The position numbers and the translations under genes are program-made. This document shows positions 337 through 7,724 of a stretch of DNA of 7,724 nucleotides, in pieces; positions within the stretch are counted from its first letter, which is position 1, and each line of letters begins with the position of its first letter. The DNA is from Clostridia bacterium (GTDB lineage Bacteria; Bacillota_A; Clostridia; Christensenellales; Aristaeellaceae): positions 1 through 7,724 of the forward strand of contig JAFUPT010000113.1 of assembly GCA_017481065.1 (NCBI GenBank), written 5' to 3'. The notes beneath the pieces are model-generated. The model made no database searches, had not been told where the DNA came from, and saw only the letters and a program-made list of their open reading frames with translations.

Positions 337-1800
337 TTAGGCGGTAGGGGTTTCGCTTGCGGGCTTTGCGCTTACGGTCCAAGTGGCGTTCGAATCAGTG
401 CCAGTCTTGACTGCCTGATAGTTTTCAGCAACATAAGAAGATACATCGCAATCGAAGGTACCGCCGTAAATCTTGATGCTGCCATCGCCGTTCTGGACGA
501 AGAGGGCATTCGAACTGTTATTGAACTTGAATGTACCGCCATAGATATTAACGGTGCTGCTCTGATCCTTTACCGCGCCGTAAGTATCGTTAATCTGGAT
601 ACGGGGGCTTATTTTATTCGTAGTATTCCAAGTATATTCACCGTCCATAATGTTCAGCTCAGAGCCGCCGCAGACGATAAAGGTCATAGCGCCTGTAAGA
701 TTGACTTTGCCTACGTTTTTAAGGGTAACCTTTGCACCATCGGCCACATAGTAGGCGATGGTCGATGAGGTGTATCCGTCAGCACCCGTGCTGGAAAGGT
801 TCATATCATTACCACCCATGTCGATGGTAGAGTCCGTATCAGAGCCGGTTGCGCCGAAGGTGTATTTATAGGTGGTACTTCCTACCTGAGCAGTGTCGCC
901 AACCTCATTCATATCAATATCTTCAGTCACGTTTACATCGCCGCCGTTCTTCAATGCATCCACGACTTCCTTCGAGTTAGAAACATATACGGGGATGGTG
1001 ATTTCAGCTTCAATCCACGGATGTGCAGCGGCAGTGATATCGCCGAAGGCCGCGTTGAGCGCAATCTTGGCGCGCTCAAGCTCGGTGTCCGCTGTGTATT
1101 CAAAGCCATTGGCCTGCACAGCCTGGGAGAGGGCCAGGATTTCAAAGCTGCTGCCGTACTTGGCCACATCTTCATTGGTGGCGGCCTTGTCCATGTAAAC
1201 CTGCTTCAGGCTGGGGATGGTTTCCTTGCCCGATTCCAGAATGCCGGTGTAGGTGCCGACATAGAGTTCGTAATATGCGCCGTTGATCTTGACAACGGCG
1301 GTTTCGCCGTCATCGCCCTTTACCCATTCCCAATCCCAGGTAGCACTGCCTTCGGAAATATTGCTGCCATTGTGAATGAGATGAACATAAGGATCATTCA
1401 CACCATTCTCGCCAACCTCAATTGCCAGAATGGTGCGCACATAGGCATTGGTCTTGCCCGTGTTTTCAACGGTGATAAACTTATCTACCACGTTGGGATT
1501 GTCCTGAACAACCTTCCATGCCTGATCGCCGGACTTTACCCATTCAGTCTCGGGAGCCCACGGAATGCTGCTGCCCTCGTAATGGGCGGGATAGAGCTTC
1601 ACGCCGGAAGAGAAGGGCTCGAGCAGGTTCTGTGCAGTGCCATCATTCTTGCGCTTCTGCTCGATCTGGTCGATCTTAACCTCGCCCATGGTCATCACGT
1701 TTACCGCGCTGTCTTCTGCCTGCAGATAAGCAACCGTGCCGGTGATTGCCAAGCTCGCCACGATGGCTACGCTCAGCACCATTGCCAGTATCTTTTTCAT
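337..1800 (-). CDS. SipW-dependent-type signal peptide protein with C-terminal beta-repeat region
   Basis: A 487-residue predicted exported protein. The N-terminus MKKILAMVLSVAIVASLAIT (1-20) is a positively charged start plus hydrophobic core. It is followed by GTVAYLQAED and then VNVMTMGEVKI (to about 43). This is the pattern of SipW-class substrates such as TasA and camelysin, cleaved by the ER-type signal peptidase SipW. Residues about 105-130 (FITVENTGKTNAYVRTILAIE) resemble the TasA-like beta-sandwich core. Residues about 325-455 are rich in short strands and contain VNIYGGTF (417-424) and IKIYGGTF (442-449), suggesting a parallel beta-helix or similar repeat fold. There are only two cysteines (377, 451). 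It ends without a sortase motif or membrane anchor. No sipW or tasA lies in the window, so the processing enzyme must be elsewhere. A role in biofilm matrix or cell surface is inferred from the family. Start choice: this ATG is 9 nt from AGGAGG; the ATG two codons upstream (1806) is only 3 nt away. Confidence 0.85.
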   Translation of the reverse strand: MKKILAMVLSVAIVASLAITGTVAYLQAEDSAVNVMTMGEVKIDQIEQKRKNDGTAQNLLEPFSSGVKLYPAHYEGSSIPWAPETEWVKSGDQAWKVVQDNPNVVDKFITVENTGKTNAYVRTILAIEVGENGVNDPYVHLIHNGSNISEGSATWDWEWVKGDDGETAVVKINGAYYELYVGTYTGILESGKETIPSLKQVYMDKAATNEDVAKYGSSFEILALSQAVQANGFEYTADTELERAKIALNAAFGDITAAAHPWIEAEITIPVYVSNSKEVVDALKNGGDVNVTEDIDMNEVGDTAQVGSTTYKYTFGATGSDTDSTIDMGGNDMNLSSTGADGYTSSTIAYYVADGAKVTLKNVGKVNLTGAMTFIVCGGSELNIMDGEYTWNTTNKISPRIQINDTYGAVKDQSSTVNIYGGTFKFNNSSNALFVQNGDGSIKIYGGTFDCDVSSYVAENYQAVKTGTDSNATWTVSAKPASETPTA

Positions 1801-1809
1801 GTTCATTTT

Positions 1810-1986: not shown

Positions 1987-2017
1987 GCAAATCGTGCCGC
2001 CGTCCGGCACGATTTGC
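1987..2017 (-). terminator. Hairpin downstream of spoIIID, likely terminator
   Basis: A perfect 13-bp stem (1987-1999 with 2005-2017) has a 5-nt loop. Read on the minus strand, five T residues follow after a 6-nt gap, so the U-tract is offset and the terminator is imperfect. The inner stem and part of the loop (ATCGTGCCG..GTCCGGCACGAT) match the terminator at 6871-6905, suggesting a repeated terminator module. It lies about 77 bp past the spoIIID stop, beyond the repeat at 2021-2114. Confidence 0.6.
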
Positions 2018-2020
2018 TGT

Positions 2021-2114
2021 AACAGAGGGGTCCAGGGGAAATCATTTCCCCTGGCGGGGATTTTTAAGGGGCAGCGCCCCTTAAACATGGGTTTCAGGGA
2101 ACTGCGTCCCCTGA
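2021..2114 (+). repeat. Three-hairpin intergenic repeat, copy A
   Basis: Three hairpins lie in a row. Hairpin 1 (2032-2054) has a perfect 10-bp stem with a TCA loop. Hairpin 2 (2063-2085) has 10 bp with an AGC loop. Hairpin 3 (2094-2114) has a 6-bp stem TCAGGG/CCCTGA with a larger loop. The blocks ACAGAGGGG, the CCCCTGG-type stem followed by CGGGG, and GGGGCAGCGCCCC recur in reverse orientation at 6649-6705. Related hairpins recur in this orientation at 6908-6993. Its right end overlaps the last codons of spoIIID. Confidence 0.75.
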
Positions 2115-2369
2115 CTGTTCCCCGTCCCTACGATACTTCGCCCGGGTCGCCGCCCCGCCGCGCAGGTGGCGCTCCTCCAGGTTTTTCCTGAGCACGGCGT
2201 CCACCTCGCGAAAGAGCACGCCGTCCAGCTGGGGCAGGCGGTCGCGCATATCCTTGTGGATGGTGGTTTTGCTCACGCCGTATTTTGCGGCGCAGGAACG
2301 AACGGTCGCGCCGGTCTCCAGTATGTATTCCGCGGCCTGCATCACCCGCAGGCGCACATCTTCCCTCAC
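2094..2369 (-). CDS. spoIIID: Sporulation transcriptional regulator SpoIIID
   Basis: A 91-residue DNA-binding protein that in the SpoIIID family activates or represses many mother-cell genes of the sigma-E and sigma-K stages of sporulation. Recognisable family motifs in order: AAEYILETGATVR (12-24), the helix-turn-helix CAAKYGVSKTTIHKDM (26-41), RLPQLDG (43-49), and the basic end ERHLRGGAATRAKY (66-79). It aligns from residue 1 with the B. subtilis protein as I remember it, and the length is normal. The start is GTG at 2367-2369, with AGGGG 8 nt upstream. The last residues, about QSGDAVP, are encoded by the repeat at 2021-2114, so the extreme tail is probably not conserved. It is transcribed alone, divergently from the LysM protein gene across a 101-bp gap. 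Sigma-E control is expected from the family, but I could not find a convincing sigma-E promoter. Confidence 0.95.
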   Translation of the reverse strand: MREDVRLRVMQAAEYILETGATVRSCAAKYGVSKTTIHKDMRDRLPQLDGVLFREVDAVLRKNLEERHLRGGAATRAKYRRDGEQSGDAVP

Positions 2370-4623: not shown

Positions 4624-4629
4624 GGTAGG

Positions 4630-4855
4630 GAACGTTGACGGAGAAAGCCCCTCGAAACTGCCTCCAGAGAGCGCGCACATGGCTGCAAGGCGCGCGGCGG
4701 GGAAGAGACCGGCTCCGGCCTCCCGAGTTCATGAGAGAACCCATGCCCATGCATGAAATCTCACGGGCGCTCCCGTTACAGGGCATCCAAGCACCAAGCA
4801 AGGTGGTACCGCGAAGCAATCCTTCGCCCTCGCAATCCGGGGGCGAAGTTTTTTT
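4630..4855 (+). ncRNA. T-box leader (tRNA-Pro sensing) of proS
   Basis: An RNA switch that reads the charging state of tRNA. Uncharged tRNA binds by its anticodon to a specifier codon and by its acceptor end to the T-box, stabilising an antiterminator so that the synthetase gene is expressed. Diagnostic here is AAGGTGGTACCGCG (4800-4813), the conserved T-box, whose UGGN pairs with the tRNA 3' end. AAGG (4800-4803) can pair with CCTT (4821-4824) to form the antiterminator; the same CCTT is used by the terminator stem, so the two are exclusive. AGAGAG followed by a GCGCGC stem with GGCTGCAAG in its loop (about 4667-4696) looks like the distal part of stem I. ACGGG/CCCGT (4763-4776) looks like stem III. 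The downstream gene predicts a proline specifier. One reading places CCG at 4709-4711, but other CCN triplets lie nearby and I could not fix the fold. Confidence 0.93.
4822..4855 (+). terminator. Regulated terminator of the T-box leader
   Basis: CTTCGCCC (4822-4829) pairs with GGGCGAAG (4841-4848), extendable by two more pairs, and is followed at once by seven T residues (4849-4855). Its 5' arm overlaps the antiterminator strand CCTT. This is the off-state structure of the T-box switch, 32 bp before the proS start. Confidence 0.92.
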
Positions 4856-4887
4856 ATTTGCAAATCAACTCCAAGGAGGAAACATAC

Positions 4888-6615
4888 ATGAAGGTACGCA
4901 ATCTTATCTCCAAGCGCTACAAGGAAACCCCCGCCGATTGCCAGATCGCCAGCCAGGCGCTCATGATGCGCGGCGGCTACATCAAGCCCGTCGGCAATGG
5001 CATCTTCACCCTCTTCCCGGCAACCAAGCGCATCACCACCAAGATCGAAAAGATCATCCGCGAGGAAATGGATCGCATCGGCGGCCAGGAACTCATGTTC
5101 CCGGTAGCCATGCCCGCCACCCTCTGGCGCGAATCCGGTCGCTTTGAGGCCATCGGCAGCGAGCTGCTCCGCTTCAAGGATCGCTCCGGCGCCGATATGG
5201 TGCTCGGCATGACCCACGAGGAAGCCTCCGTGCATTTCGTGCGCGATGTGGCCGATTCTTACACCCAGTATCCCTTCATGATCTACCAGATCCAGACCAA
5301 GTTCCGCGATGAGCCCCGCTGCCGCGGCGGCCTGATCCGCGTGCGCGAATTCACCATGAAGGACGCCTATTCCTTCCACACCTCCCAGGAGGATCTGGAA
5401 TCCTACTACATGGAGTGCTACGAGGCATACAACCGCGTCTATCGCCGCGCAGGCGTGGGCGAGGTCGTGGCCGTCGCTTCCGACAGCGGCATGATGGGCG
5501 GCAAGGTCTCCCATGAATACATGCTGCTCACCCCCGTCGGCGAGGATACCATCGTGCTCTGCCATGATTGCGATTACCGCGCCAACATGGAGGCCGCTCC
5601 CTGCATCGTGAACAACGAGTCCGGCGAAATTGCCGAGCTCGCCAAGGTGCCCACCCCCGATGTCAAGACCATCGAGGATCTGGCCAAGTTCCTGAACATC
5701 GATGCCAGGCAGACCTGCAAGGCCGTCGTCTACCAGGAGAACCTCACCGATAAGTATGTCGTGGCCTTCCTCCGCGGCGACCTGGACATCAACGAAACCA
5801 AGCTCCGCAACTACCTCAAGGCCGAAATCCATCCCGGCGAAATCACCCCCGAGTGCGGCCTGTCCGCAGGCTTCATCGGCCCGAAGGGTCTGCCGCAGGA
5901 TGTGAAGGTGGTCTTCGACGCCTCCCTCAAGGGCATCAACTGGCTCGCCACCGGCGCGAATGAAACCGATATGCACTACACCGGCTTCAACATCGCCCGC
6001 GATATCGGCGAAGTGGAGTATGTGGATGTGGCCAAGGCCTTCGATGGCGGCATCTGCCCCGTCTGCGGCAAGCCCAGCGTATACACCTCCCGCGGCATCG
6101 AGGTCGGCAATATCTTCCAGCTCGGCACCAAGTACACCGAGTCCATGGGCATGACCTATGTCGACCAGGACGGCGCCCTCAAGCATCCCATCATGGGCTG
6201 CTACGGCATCGGCGTCGGCCGCCTCGCCGCTTCCGTCTGCGAAGCGCACCGCGATGATTACGGCCCCATCTGGCCCATCTCCATCGCTCCCTGGCATGTG
6301 CAGATCTGCTCCCTCCGCGCAGACAATGAGGAAGTGGCCGCCATGTCCCAGAAGATCTACGATGAACTCACCGCCCGCGGCGTGGAAGTCCTCTGGGATG
6401 ACCGCCAGGTTTCCGCCGGCTTCATGTTCTCCGATGCCGATCTCTTCGGCGTGCCGGTGCGCATCGTCGTCAGCCCCAAGGGCCTCAAGAACGGCACCAT
6501 CGAAATCTCCTCCCGCGATAAGTCCCTCAAGGAAGTTAAGCCCGCGGAAGAGGCTGTCGATTTCGTATACAACTATGTCGTAGACGAGCTTGCCAAGCTG
6601 GAGTGCCGCCTGTAA
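4888..6615 (+). CDS. proS: Proline--tRNA ligase (bacterial type with INS editing domain)
   Basis: A 575-residue class II aminoacyl-tRNA synthetase that attaches proline to tRNA-Pro in the cytoplasm. Motif 1 lies around 57-76 (ending GGQELMFPVAMP), then THEE (109-112) and YQIQTKFRDEPR (133-144). Motif 2 continues through RVREFTMKDAYSFH (151-164). Motif 3 is GCYGIGVGRLAAS (437-449). An inserted editing (INS) domain, which clears mischarged Ala-tRNA-Pro, spans roughly 225-395. It is flanked by CHDC (225-228) and CPVC (390-393), possibly a metal-binding pair. The HGTP-type anticodon-binding domain runs from about 465 (IAPWHVQICSL) to the end. The length is normal for this type. The ATG at 4888 has AAGGAGGA 7 nt upstream; the in-frame ATG at 4753 lies inside the T-box and would disrupt it. 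Codon choice is strongly C-ending (ATC, CTC, GGC), as expected for a highly expressed gene in a GC-rich genome. Expression should rise when tRNA-Pro is uncharged. Confidence 0.98.
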   Translation: MKVRNLISKRYKETPADCQIASQALMMRGGYIKPVGNGIFTLFPATKRITTKIEKIIREEMDRIGGQELMFPVAMPATLWRESGRFEAIGSELLRFKDRSGADMVLGMTHEEASVHFVRDVADSYTQYPFMIYQIQTKFRDEPRCRGGLIRVREFTMKDAYSFHTSQEDLESYYMECYEAYNRVYRRAGVGEVVAVASDSGMMGGKVSHEYMLLTPVGEDTIVLCHDCDYRANMEAAPCIVNNESGEIAELAKVPTPDVKTIEDLAKFLNIDARQTCKAVVYQENLTDKYVVAFLRGDLDINETKLRNYLKAEIHPGEITPECGLSAGFIGPKGLPQDVKVVFDASLKGINWLATGANETDMHYTGFNIARDIGEVEYVDVAKAFDGGICPVCGKPSVYTSRGIEVGNIFQLGTKYTESMGMTYVDQDGALKHPIMGCYGIGVGRLAASVCEAHRDDYGPIWPISIAPWHVQICSLRADNEEVAAMSQKIYDELTARGVEVLWDDRQVSAGFMFSDADLFGVPVRIVVSPKGLKNGTIEISSRDKSLKEVKPAEEAVDFVYNYVVDELAKLECRL

Positions 6616-6648
6616 GCGGGGAGAGATGCTGGCTTACATTGGGTTATG

Positions 6649-6705
6649 CTGGGGCGCTGCCCCAGACCCCGCCAAGGGGAATGATTCCCCTTGGAACCCT
6701 CTGTA
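6649..6705 (-). repeat. Hairpin intergenic repeat, copy B (two-hairpin form, inverted)
   Basis: Read on the minus strand this matches copy A (2021-2085): TTACAGAGGG, then a CCAAGGGGAAT stem, GGCGGGG, then GGGGCAGCGCCCC. Hairpins on the plus strand are 6649-6665 (7 bp, loop GCT) and 6672-6694 (perfect 10 bp, loop TGA). The third hairpin seen in copies A and C is missing; 6616-6648, between the proS stop and this copy, shows nothing recognisable. The element runs straight into the proS terminator. Confidence 0.75.
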
Positions 6706-6707
6706 AG

Positions 6708-6738
6708 AAAAAATGACCTCGGAGCGAGGTCATTTTTT
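6708..6738 (+). terminator. Rho-independent terminator of proS
   Basis: TGACCTC (6714-6720) pairs with GAGGTCA (6726-6732). The stem extends through six A-T pairs and ends in TTTTTT (6733-6738). The A-run on the left means it could also work for minus-strand transcripts. It lies 93 bp after the proS stop, with repeat copy B between. Confidence 0.9.
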
Positions 6739-6784: not shown

Positions 6785-6862
6785 TTGTAGGGGCGCACCT
6801 ATGTGTGCGCCCGAAAAAGAAAATGATGCTCTGCGAGCGATCACATAGAATTCGTCCTACAA
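6785..6862. repeat. 78-bp MITE-like element containing the 28-bp hairpin repeat
   Basis: The ends are perfect 7-bp inverted repeats, TTGTAGG (6785-6791) and CCTACAA (6856-6862). Inside the left end is the hairpin GGGCGCAC / GTGCGCCC (6791-6798, 6805-6812), and 6786-6813 is identical to 69-96. No coding capacity is seen. The small size and terminal inverted repeats suggest a non-autonomous mobile or REP-like element. No target duplication is evident and no transposase is nearby. The adjoining bases 6739-6784 hold nothing I can identify. Confidence 0.5.
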
Positions 6863-6870
6863 TTTTCCAT

Positions 6871-6905
6871 TAAAAAATCGTGCCGTTGTCCGGCACGATT
6901 TTTTA
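6871..6905 (-). terminator. Terminator downstream of the sugar permease gene (bidirectional)
   Basis: A perfect 15-bp stem (6871-6885 with 6891-6905) has a TTGTC loop on the plus strand. It has A/T runs at both feet, giving six U residues in either direction. It lies about 88 bp past the permease stop, beyond repeat copy C. The inner stem and GTC of the loop are shared with the hairpin at 1987-2017. Confidence 0.85.
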
Positions 6906-6907
6906 TT

Positions 6908-6993
6908 CGAAGGTTTCCAAAGGGGATCATCCCCTTTGTCGGGGGTTTGGGGGCGGAGCCCCCAACGGGGTTCCAAGGGGCAGAGTCCCTTGG
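6908..6993 (+). repeat. Three-hairpin intergenic repeat, copy C
   Basis: Hairpin 1 (6919-6937) has 8 bp with a TCA loop. Hairpin 2 (6947-6965) has 8 bp, GGGGGC/GCCCCC, with a GGA loop. Hairpin 3 (6973-6993) has 7 bp plus a G-T pair. Order, spacing and loop positions match copy A, but the sequence is more diverged (purine-rich GGGGGCGGAGCCCCC). It ends one base before the stop codon of the permease gene (6994-6996). Confidence 0.7.
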
Positions 6994-7724
6994 TTACTTC
7001 GCCTTCTTCTTGCTGCGGATGAAGTCTACATAAACCGCGCCAAGGATAACGCCGCCCTTGATGATGAACTGCCAGTCGGAGTTCACGCCCATCAGGTTCA
7101 GGCCGTTGTTCAGAATGCCGATGATCAGGGCGCCGATCAGGGTGCCGCCCAGCTTACCGGAGCCGCCGGCCATGGAAGTACCGCCGATAACTACTGCGGC
7201 GATGGCGTCGTTTTCAGCGCCGTCACCGGAGGTGCAGGTACCGGAGTACAGGCGGGAAGCGATGGTGATACCGGCCAGACCGGCCAGCAGGCCGCTGATG
7301 GTGTGCACAACGAACTTCACCTTGGTGGTGTTGATACCGGAGAACTTCGCAGCGGTGGCGTTGCCGCCTACTGCGTAGATGTGGCGGCCCATGCGGGTGC
7401 GGTTCAGGAACAGCACGCACACGATGAACACGATGAACATGGTGATCACGGGGGTGGGGATGCCGGCAACATAGCCTGCGCCCAGGAACTTCCAGGCATC
7501 GGTCATGCAGCGGATCGGCTTACCGCCGGAGAATACATAAGCGATACCCTTTGCAATGTTCTGGGATGCCAGGGTCACGATGAACGGCGGGATGGTGGTC
7601 TTGGCGATCAGGAAGCCATTGAACATGCCGAACACGCCACCGGACAGGATGCCGATCAGGATGCCGACGATCTCAGGCATGCCGCCCCATACAACTGCGC
7701 CAGCGCCCAGGCAGCCGGACATAG
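6994..7724 (-). CDS. Sugar ABC transporter permease, RbsC/MglC type (partial, N-terminus outside window)
   Basis: The last 243 or so residues of an integral membrane permease of the BPD_transp_2 family, which forms the channel of importers for ribose, galactose and related sugars. Counting from the ATG at 7722, hydrophobic segments lie at about 16-40, 46-65, 89-106, 133-157, 172-183 and 190-211, with a final one at 217-234. Family motifs are NGFLIAKTTIPPFIVTLAS (35-53), YAVGGNATAAKFSGI (116-130), and DAIAAVVIGGTSMAGGSGKL (172-191), the loop thought to contact the ATPase, as well as GVNSDWQFIIKGG (212-224). The C-terminus SKKKAK is basic, as expected for a cytoplasmic tail. Intact relatives are about 310-350 residues, so the true start lies beyond 7724 and the ATG at 7722 is probably internal. 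ATPase and binding-protein genes are expected upstream, outside the window. The substrate cannot be told from this part. It is the last gene of its transcript: a terminator follows at 6871-6905. Confidence 0.92.
   Translation of the reverse strand, partial: MSGCLGAGAVVWGGMPEIVGILIGILSGGVFGMFNGFLIAKTTIPPFIVTLASQNIAKGIAYVFSGGKPIRCMTDAWKFLGAGYVAGIPTPVITMFIVFIVCVLFLNRTRMGRHIYAVGGNATAAKFSGINTTKVKFVVHTISGLLAGLAGITIASRLYSGTCTSGDGAENDAIAAVVIGGTSMAGGSGKLGGTLIGALIIGILNNGLNLMGVNSDWQFIIKGGVILGAVYVDFIRSKKKAK

Follow-up and report, generated by a model that had tools for sequence, protein, structure and literature searches.

The window, by which we mean the whole stretch of 7,724 nucleotides that was analysed, carries three hairpin arrays, located behind spoIIID, proS and a sugar permease gene. 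The arrays probably represent a lineage-restricted, dispersed and modular palindromic repeat, which is similar to REP/BIME elements, is untagged and has no evident RAYT transposase. In the initial annotation, it was suggested that the cassette could be a 3'-UTR module and not a passive REP element. This suggestion was supported only in part. The insertions are patchy, the hairpins vary between near-identical relatives, and a test for strand-specific selection failed. A dispersed palindromic repeat is the better fit.

All three arrays have the same direction relative to the preceding gene. Folding confirmed the initial observation that they share one orientation behind their genes and that a terminator-like hairpin lies beyond each of them (Table 1). 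The sense-strand folds of copies A, B and C gave z = -6.96, -6.83 and -7.53, and for each copy none of the 200 shuffles was as stable. Read on the sense strand, each unit is a palindrome with a GGG..CCC stem and, in most cases, a 3-base loop, and short C-rich spacers (ACCCCGC, AATCCCCGC and similar) link the units. The outermost hairpin of copy A overlaps the end of the spoIIID gene and encodes the last 6 residues of SpoIIID plus the TGA stop. A motif filter recognised the SpoIIID C-terminus in only 1 of 27 spoIIID orthologues. Using an alignment of 18 two-hairpin modules, we built the covariance model R1, which describes two neighbouring hairpins. It matched copy A at 2025-2087 (minus, 61.6 bits), copy B at 6644-6701 (plus, 63.7 bits) and copy C at 6910-6969 (minus, 67.1 bits). 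Chance hairpins were rejected as an explanation on the basis of the shuffled-sequence folds and of same-lineage genomes without any model match.

Table 1. Positions of the hairpin arrays, the terminator-like hairpins and the neighbouring genes in the window.
Feature	Positions	Strand	Basis
Terminator-like hairpin behind copy A	1987..2017	minus	repeat comparison, fold
Copy A, hairpin 1 (CCAGGGGAAATGATTTCCCCTGG), then ACCCC	2032..2054	minus	fold, model R1
Copy A, hairpin 2 (TTTAAGGGGCGCTGCCCCTTAAA), then spacer AATCCCCGC	2063..2085	minus	sequence, fold, model R1
Copy A, hairpin 3 (head)	2094..2114	minus	fold, ORF, sequence
spoIIID	2094..2369	minus	Pfam PF12116, 100.5 bits
proS (proline--tRNA ligase)	4888..6615	plus	Pfam tRNA-synt_2b, tRNA_edit, HGTP_anticodon on longer ORF 4753-6615
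Copy B, hairpin 2 (CTGGGGCGCTGCCCCAG), then ACCCCGC	6649..6665	plus	fold, model R1
Copy B, hairpin 1 (CCAAGGGGAATGATTCCCCTTGG), then AACCC	6672..6694	plus	fold, model R1
Intrinsic-terminator-like hairpin of proS (behind copy B)	6708..6738	plus	fold
Terminator-like hairpin behind copy C	6872..6904	minus	same core as behind A; fold
Copy C, hairpin 1 (CAAAGGGGATGATCCCCTTTG), then GAAACC	6918..6938	minus	fold, model R1
Copy C, hairpin 2 (TTGGGGGCTCCGCCCCCAA), then ACCCCCG	6947..6965	minus	fold, model R1
Copy C, hairpin 3 (head), immediately after permease TAA stop	6973..6993	minus	sequence, fold
Sugar-type ABC permease, partial	6994..7722	minus	Pfam PF02653 (BPD_transp_2)

Relatives were found by a ProS search with one genome per species. 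The best 80 of 572 loci were taken, and 56 of these 80 have 80-89% identity. According to the record titles, the ProS loci come from Clostridia/Clostridiales MAGs, many of them from ruminant, deer, horse or rabbit gut. Arrays behind proS occur in a minority of the loci. Among the 29 loci listed, they are clear in L006, L011, L016 and L020, and L022 and L021 have weak model matches on the opposite strand. In the window and the 80 loci, R1 gave 36 matches at E<=1, and in the genome of L016 it gave 81 matches at E<=1e-3. At E<=1e-5, 27 of 41 genomes were matched, with 4 to 124 matches each, and the remaining 14 had no match. Among 100 genomes around G020 (G020 included), 32 had a match at E<=1e-6. 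When 298 further genomes from the phylum were scanned at low sensitivity, none had a match at 1e-7, which says only that strong matches are rare elsewhere. The numbers of candidates scored per genome were at most 135, 55 and 18 for the sets of 41, 100 and 298 genomes, respectively, so the counts for these sets are lower bounds. The closest proS relative, G002 (89%), had no R1 match at 1e-5 genome-wide; two weak matches lie near its proS (32.8 and 28.5 bits). Scanning the relatives with a covariance model had been suggested in the initial annotation, and the scan revealed many copies and a bias in their orientation relative to genes.

The array family is patchy and probably lineage-restricted, with an uneven copy number within part of a gut Clostridia lineage. 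An array consists of 2 to 5 GC-rich hairpins arranged head to tail, with C-rich spacers of about AAyCCCGC and loops mostly of 3 bases. The commonest units are 17-24 bases long plus the spacer. In 123,704 bases of array-bearing sequence, no Rfam family scored at its gathering threshold or above. The Clostridiales-2 RNA (RF02937) weakly matches the plus strand over the copy A region (2018-2102; 17.5 bits at a gathering score of 58.6). A known Rfam family was rejected on this basis. We found no description of this repeat family in the open-licence PMC literature, and the available parts of PMC8040213 and PMC6006769 name REPs and describe no such family. Four IMG/VR contigs (L257-L260) bear the hairpin-plus-spacer word, and three of them have model matches of 32-49 bits.

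We assessed the placement of the arrays on long contig stretches of G020, G006, G045 and G015. Several of these contigs were already known to bear at least one array; the sample is fair for orientation, not for density. The 79 model matches were merged into 71 arrays, and 69 were left after the removal of two at a contig edge. Of the 36 matches at E<=1, the placement tables leave out the 10 whose E value exceeds 0.00095, as well as the 3 of L020, which were counted on G020 contig C4. An 80-kb stretch of G012 gave no model match. None of the 74 placed matches was inside a called gene. The retrained gene caller, which was seeded with proS, placed proS correctly in 40 of 40 loci. Co-directional gaps hold 44 arrays; 31 of them are sense, with the head at the stop codon, and 13 are antisense, with the head toward the start codon (p = 0.0096). 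In an earlier, smaller count restricted to contigs of G020 and G006, 26 arrays were sense and 13 antisense (p = 0.053). Another 25 of the 69 arrays lie in convergent gaps. It turned out that none lies in a divergent gap, although divergent gaps make up 201 of the 779 gaps of 80 bases or more (26%; p = 2e-9). One exception is known beyond the placed sample: an array of two adjacent matches in a divergent gap in L016.

Thus, the statement of the initial annotation that the arrays always have the same orientation relative to the gene was upheld as a bias and not as a fixed rule. The 13 antisense arrays break such a rule, and 10 of them lie within 75 bases ahead of a start codon. The 21 non-sense matches have 19 head-side genes. 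Of the 17 genes that were checked, 15 have Pfam domains on the called strand. Most of the antisense cases therefore do not stem from errors in gene calling. In 62 of the 69 arrays, it is the head and not the tail that lies closer to a gene, and the same holds for 48 of 51 after extension of the array ends on the G020 and G006 contigs. Part of this rule may be due to a longer element of which the model detects the head alone. The sense bias, the absence from divergent gaps and the three sense arrays of the window also speak for a dedicated 3'-UTR RNA module, that is, for arrays kept behind chosen genes to stabilise or process mRNA 3' ends. The antisense arrays ahead of start codons speak against such a module.

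Comparison of orthologous sites in near-identical genomes gave further evidence. The four genomes compared with G020 (G019, G044, G046 and G034) encode TGT proteins with 98-100% identity to the G020 protein. The site upstream of tgt is empty in G019, where the genes overlap. In G020, G044, G046 and G034, the same site is filled with an antisense array that immediately precedes the ribosome-binding site. The tail hairpin is common to the four filled sites, and the set of head hairpins is different in each. At the gap 186629-186949 of G020 contig C4, the native terminator stands alone in G019 and G034, and G044 has one array between the terminator and the ribosome-binding site. G020 and G046 have a second, sense array between the stop codon and the native terminator, and the two arrays are opposed. 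These differences between the genomes indicate that the opposed arrays are separate insertions and that the terminator belongs to the site. In the pheS-pheT gap, G044 has one more hairpin than G020. G034 has two hairpins in swapped order when compared to G020 and G044, plus its own head hairpin.

At the compared sites, the flanking proteins are 90-100% identical, while whole hairpins have been gained, lost, replaced and reordered. These comparisons show that the arrays have inserted at gene borders, into sites that are otherwise orthologous. Polar growth, with the old hairpin at the tail and new ones at the head, was considered and rejected: it fits tgt and pheS-pheT but fails upstream of pheS, where the shared hairpin is the head one. 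An array inserted between a stop codon and a native terminator is probably transcribed. This position, seen at one site in two genomes, is in line with a 3'-UTR module. Such a module is difficult to reconcile with hairpins that vary freely at one site and with near-identical relatives that have no array at the same gene.

The terminator-like hairpins are a separate matter. Those of copies A and C are identical at 25 of 27 bases, and that of copy B is unrelated to them. The word of the A/C terminator hairpin was not found elsewhere among the loci examined. In the relatives, a T-run stands immediately behind only 2 of 152 arrays, in a permissive set that includes some unrelated hairpins. The terminator is not part of the array module in the relatives. 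Intrinsic (Rho-independent) terminators resemble the arrays in having a GC hairpin behind the stop codon. However, they have a T-run, and 150 of the 152 arrays have none directly behind them. In addition, at the gap compared above, G020 and G046 keep the native terminator beyond the array. The idea that the arrays are intrinsic terminators was therefore rejected.

The initial annotation noted that the conservation of the stems would fit selection on RNA structure. A palindrome can pair as DNA and in the RNA of either strand. If selection acted on the sense RNA, G-U mismatches would be expected to outnumber A-C mismatches on the sense strand. In 50 distinct copies, 92.2% of the stem cells were paired versus 73.1% in shuffles, and 15 of 18 stem pairs had double changes; the alignment used for both figures (A3) was fitted to the model structure, so the pairing is inflated. 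At one orthologous site, a hairpin in the pheS-pheT gap, G034 has GGA/TCC where G020 and G044 have GGG/CCC. The G034 word occurs only once among all loci examined and therefore looks like a true compensatory change and not a copy. The sense-strand mismatches gave the opposite of what is expected from selection on RNA: 20 were of the G-U type and 41 of the A-C type (p = 0.0099). With distinct words, the numbers were 19 and 32 (p = 0.09), and at least 13 of the 32 A-C cases proper came from one hairpin type, CCAAAGGG..CCCTCTGG. Since G-U does not exceed A-C, the counts give no support for strand-specific selection on the sense RNA.

Thus, paired changes in the stems were confirmed, and the wobble excess that should accompany selection on the sense strand was absent. 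Both an orientation bias and compensatory stem changes are seen in the relatives; the initial annotation had regarded the lack of these two features as fatal to its idea. The sense bias and the paired stem changes also fit selection at the RNA level, which is a point against our reading of the arrays as a repeat. With the paired stems on its side and the mismatch counts against it, we consider a dedicated 3'-UTR module unlikely.

We compared the arrays with REP/BIME elements. In the available part of PMC3733652, REPs are defined and divided into GTAG and CGTC super-families by their tetranucleotide tags. The same source reports REPs chiefly from gaps between unidirectional or convergent genes and from sites downstream of coding regions, and our arrays are placed likewise. 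The arrays are similar to REP/BIME elements in several other respects. A REP is a palindrome of 20-40 bp, and our units of 17-24 bases plus the spacer correspond to this size. REPs have a high extragenic copy number, and the arrays reach 124 matches per genome, all placed ones being outside genes. Both are patchy across species, plausibly transcribed, and found 3' of coding regions, mainly in co-directional and convergent gaps. The differences are also clear. Terminal GTAG or CGTC is typical of REPs. On the 732 flanks of 366 hairpins, we found GTAG/CTAC or CGTC/GACG tags only 20 times on either strand. Inverted dimers (head-head or tail-tail) predominate in REP/BIME, and REP doublets (REPINs) are inverted pairs according to the available part of PMC3116915. 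In contrast, the arrays described here are direct head-to-tail repeats of unlike hairpins. Judging by the spacers, the units within one array share their orientation, with no clear call in 3 of 21 family arrays. Opposed arrays do exist here, but the pair in the gap 186629-186949 of G020 contig C4 results from two separate insertions. A shared C-rich spacer that joins the hairpins and the swapping of modules at one site also distinguish the arrays from REP/BIME.

GTAG-class REPs are explained by RAYT transposases. Y1_Tnp domains were found in 22 of 42 genomes. Among the 22 genomes with at least 15 array matches, 9 have Y1_Tnp and 13 have no Y1_Tnp (RAYT) match, although their assemblies may be incomplete. 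Y1_Tnp is also present in 9 of 14 genomes without array matches, and the rank correlation between array matches and Y1_Tnp is -0.33. Neither a target-site duplication nor a mobilising enzyme was found for the arrays. Judged by its presence in the genomes, the link to RAYT that marks the GTAG class of REP/BIME is thus not seen here, with the same reservation about incomplete assemblies. If a RAYT (Y1 HuH) transposase mobilised the arrays as in a classical REP/BIME system, this would account for the size, the copy number, the extragenic position and the mosaic structure (REP-like in terms of the available part of PMC3733652), as well as for the Y1_Tnp domains in about half of the genomes. We nevertheless rejected this explanation as very unlikely, because Y1_Tnp gave no match in 13 of the 22 array-rich genomes and is present in array-free ones, the tags are rare, and the units do not alternate.

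An untagged palindromic repeat is not without precedent. Tagged REP families come so far mostly from Proteobacteria, and untagged REP-like families exist, as stated in the available part of PMC3733652. Together with the available part of the stem-loop catalogue PMC2267715, this source describes stem-loop repeats that are likewise untagged and intergenic. Those families belong to other organisms, whereas the repeats found here form arrays of 2-5 units with a polarity toward the gene. The part of the PMC2267715 catalogue available to us holds no family of this array shape.

The modules may be copied or exchanged via palindrome-driven recombination or template switching, or by a mobilising enzyme. 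Copies in promoters and coding DNA would be removed by selection. Those behind a stop codon and ahead of the terminator would be transcribed and could passively hinder 3'-to-5' decay, as E. coli REPs do. REPs near a stop codon can also reduce translation in E. coli. Hairpins at 3' ends slow 3'-to-5' decay (PMC7509114, available part). It is plausible that mRNA stabilisation by the arrays is a secondary role, perhaps a side effect. We can go further only tentatively and with considerable doubt: the arrays might form a transposase-independent class of repeats in which the single hairpin is the unit of exchange. Polar arrays, head to the gene, would insert at the edges of coding sequences (at the stop codon or a short way before the ribosome-binding site). 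Their hairpins would be reshuffled as discrete modules via recombination or template switching, at a pace exceeding that of change in the proteins encoded nearby. A dense, recently active, untagged family in gut Clostridia makes the spread of palindromes without RAYT a testable question. Natural pairs with and without an array at one gene are suitable for measuring the effect of a 3' hairpin array on mRNA.

In the first 400 kb of G020 contig C39 (L152-L171), there were no model matches in 92 non-divergent gaps, versus 28 in 110 such gaps elsewhere (rough p = 8e-9). This array-free stretch is partly syntenic in G045 contig C10, 0-335 kb (L280-L296). It is also poor in other repeats, and the GC skew turns near 275 kb in G020. 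The stretch may reflect the position of the origin or terminus; searches for dnaA, ribosomal L2 and dif-like sites did not fix the replication map. The stretch could be taken as a sign that the palindromes act as DNA, being a nucleoid, gyrase or recombination site. Their symmetry on both strands and mismatches without preference for the sense RNA agree with this. However, other repeats are also thin there, so the gap is not specific, and the many relatives without any match in the genome speak against an essential role in DNA. An element acting at the DNA level is very improbable.

Several other features of the window were observed. The protein encoded at 337-1806 (minus) has a start that looks by eye like a signal peptide and gave no Pfam match. 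Upstream of proS, a stretch similar to a T-box leader lies at 4626-4834 (plus; 43.9 bits at a gathering score of 93). Palindromes GTAGGGGCGCACCTATGTGTGCGCCC, identical over 28 bases, are located on the plus strand at 70-95 and 6787-6812. They are shaped like GTAG-tagged REPs, and the second copy lies between arrays B and C. Similar words of the GTAGGGGCG..CGCCC type occur in 9 of 81 sources. The beginning of the window contains a 44-base repeat at 10-53 and 194-237 (98% identical) and a 38-base repeat at 104-141 and 143-180 (92% identical). Words of the GGGGAGCTG..GACTGAG type, which are similar to these repeats, are present on G020 contig C4.
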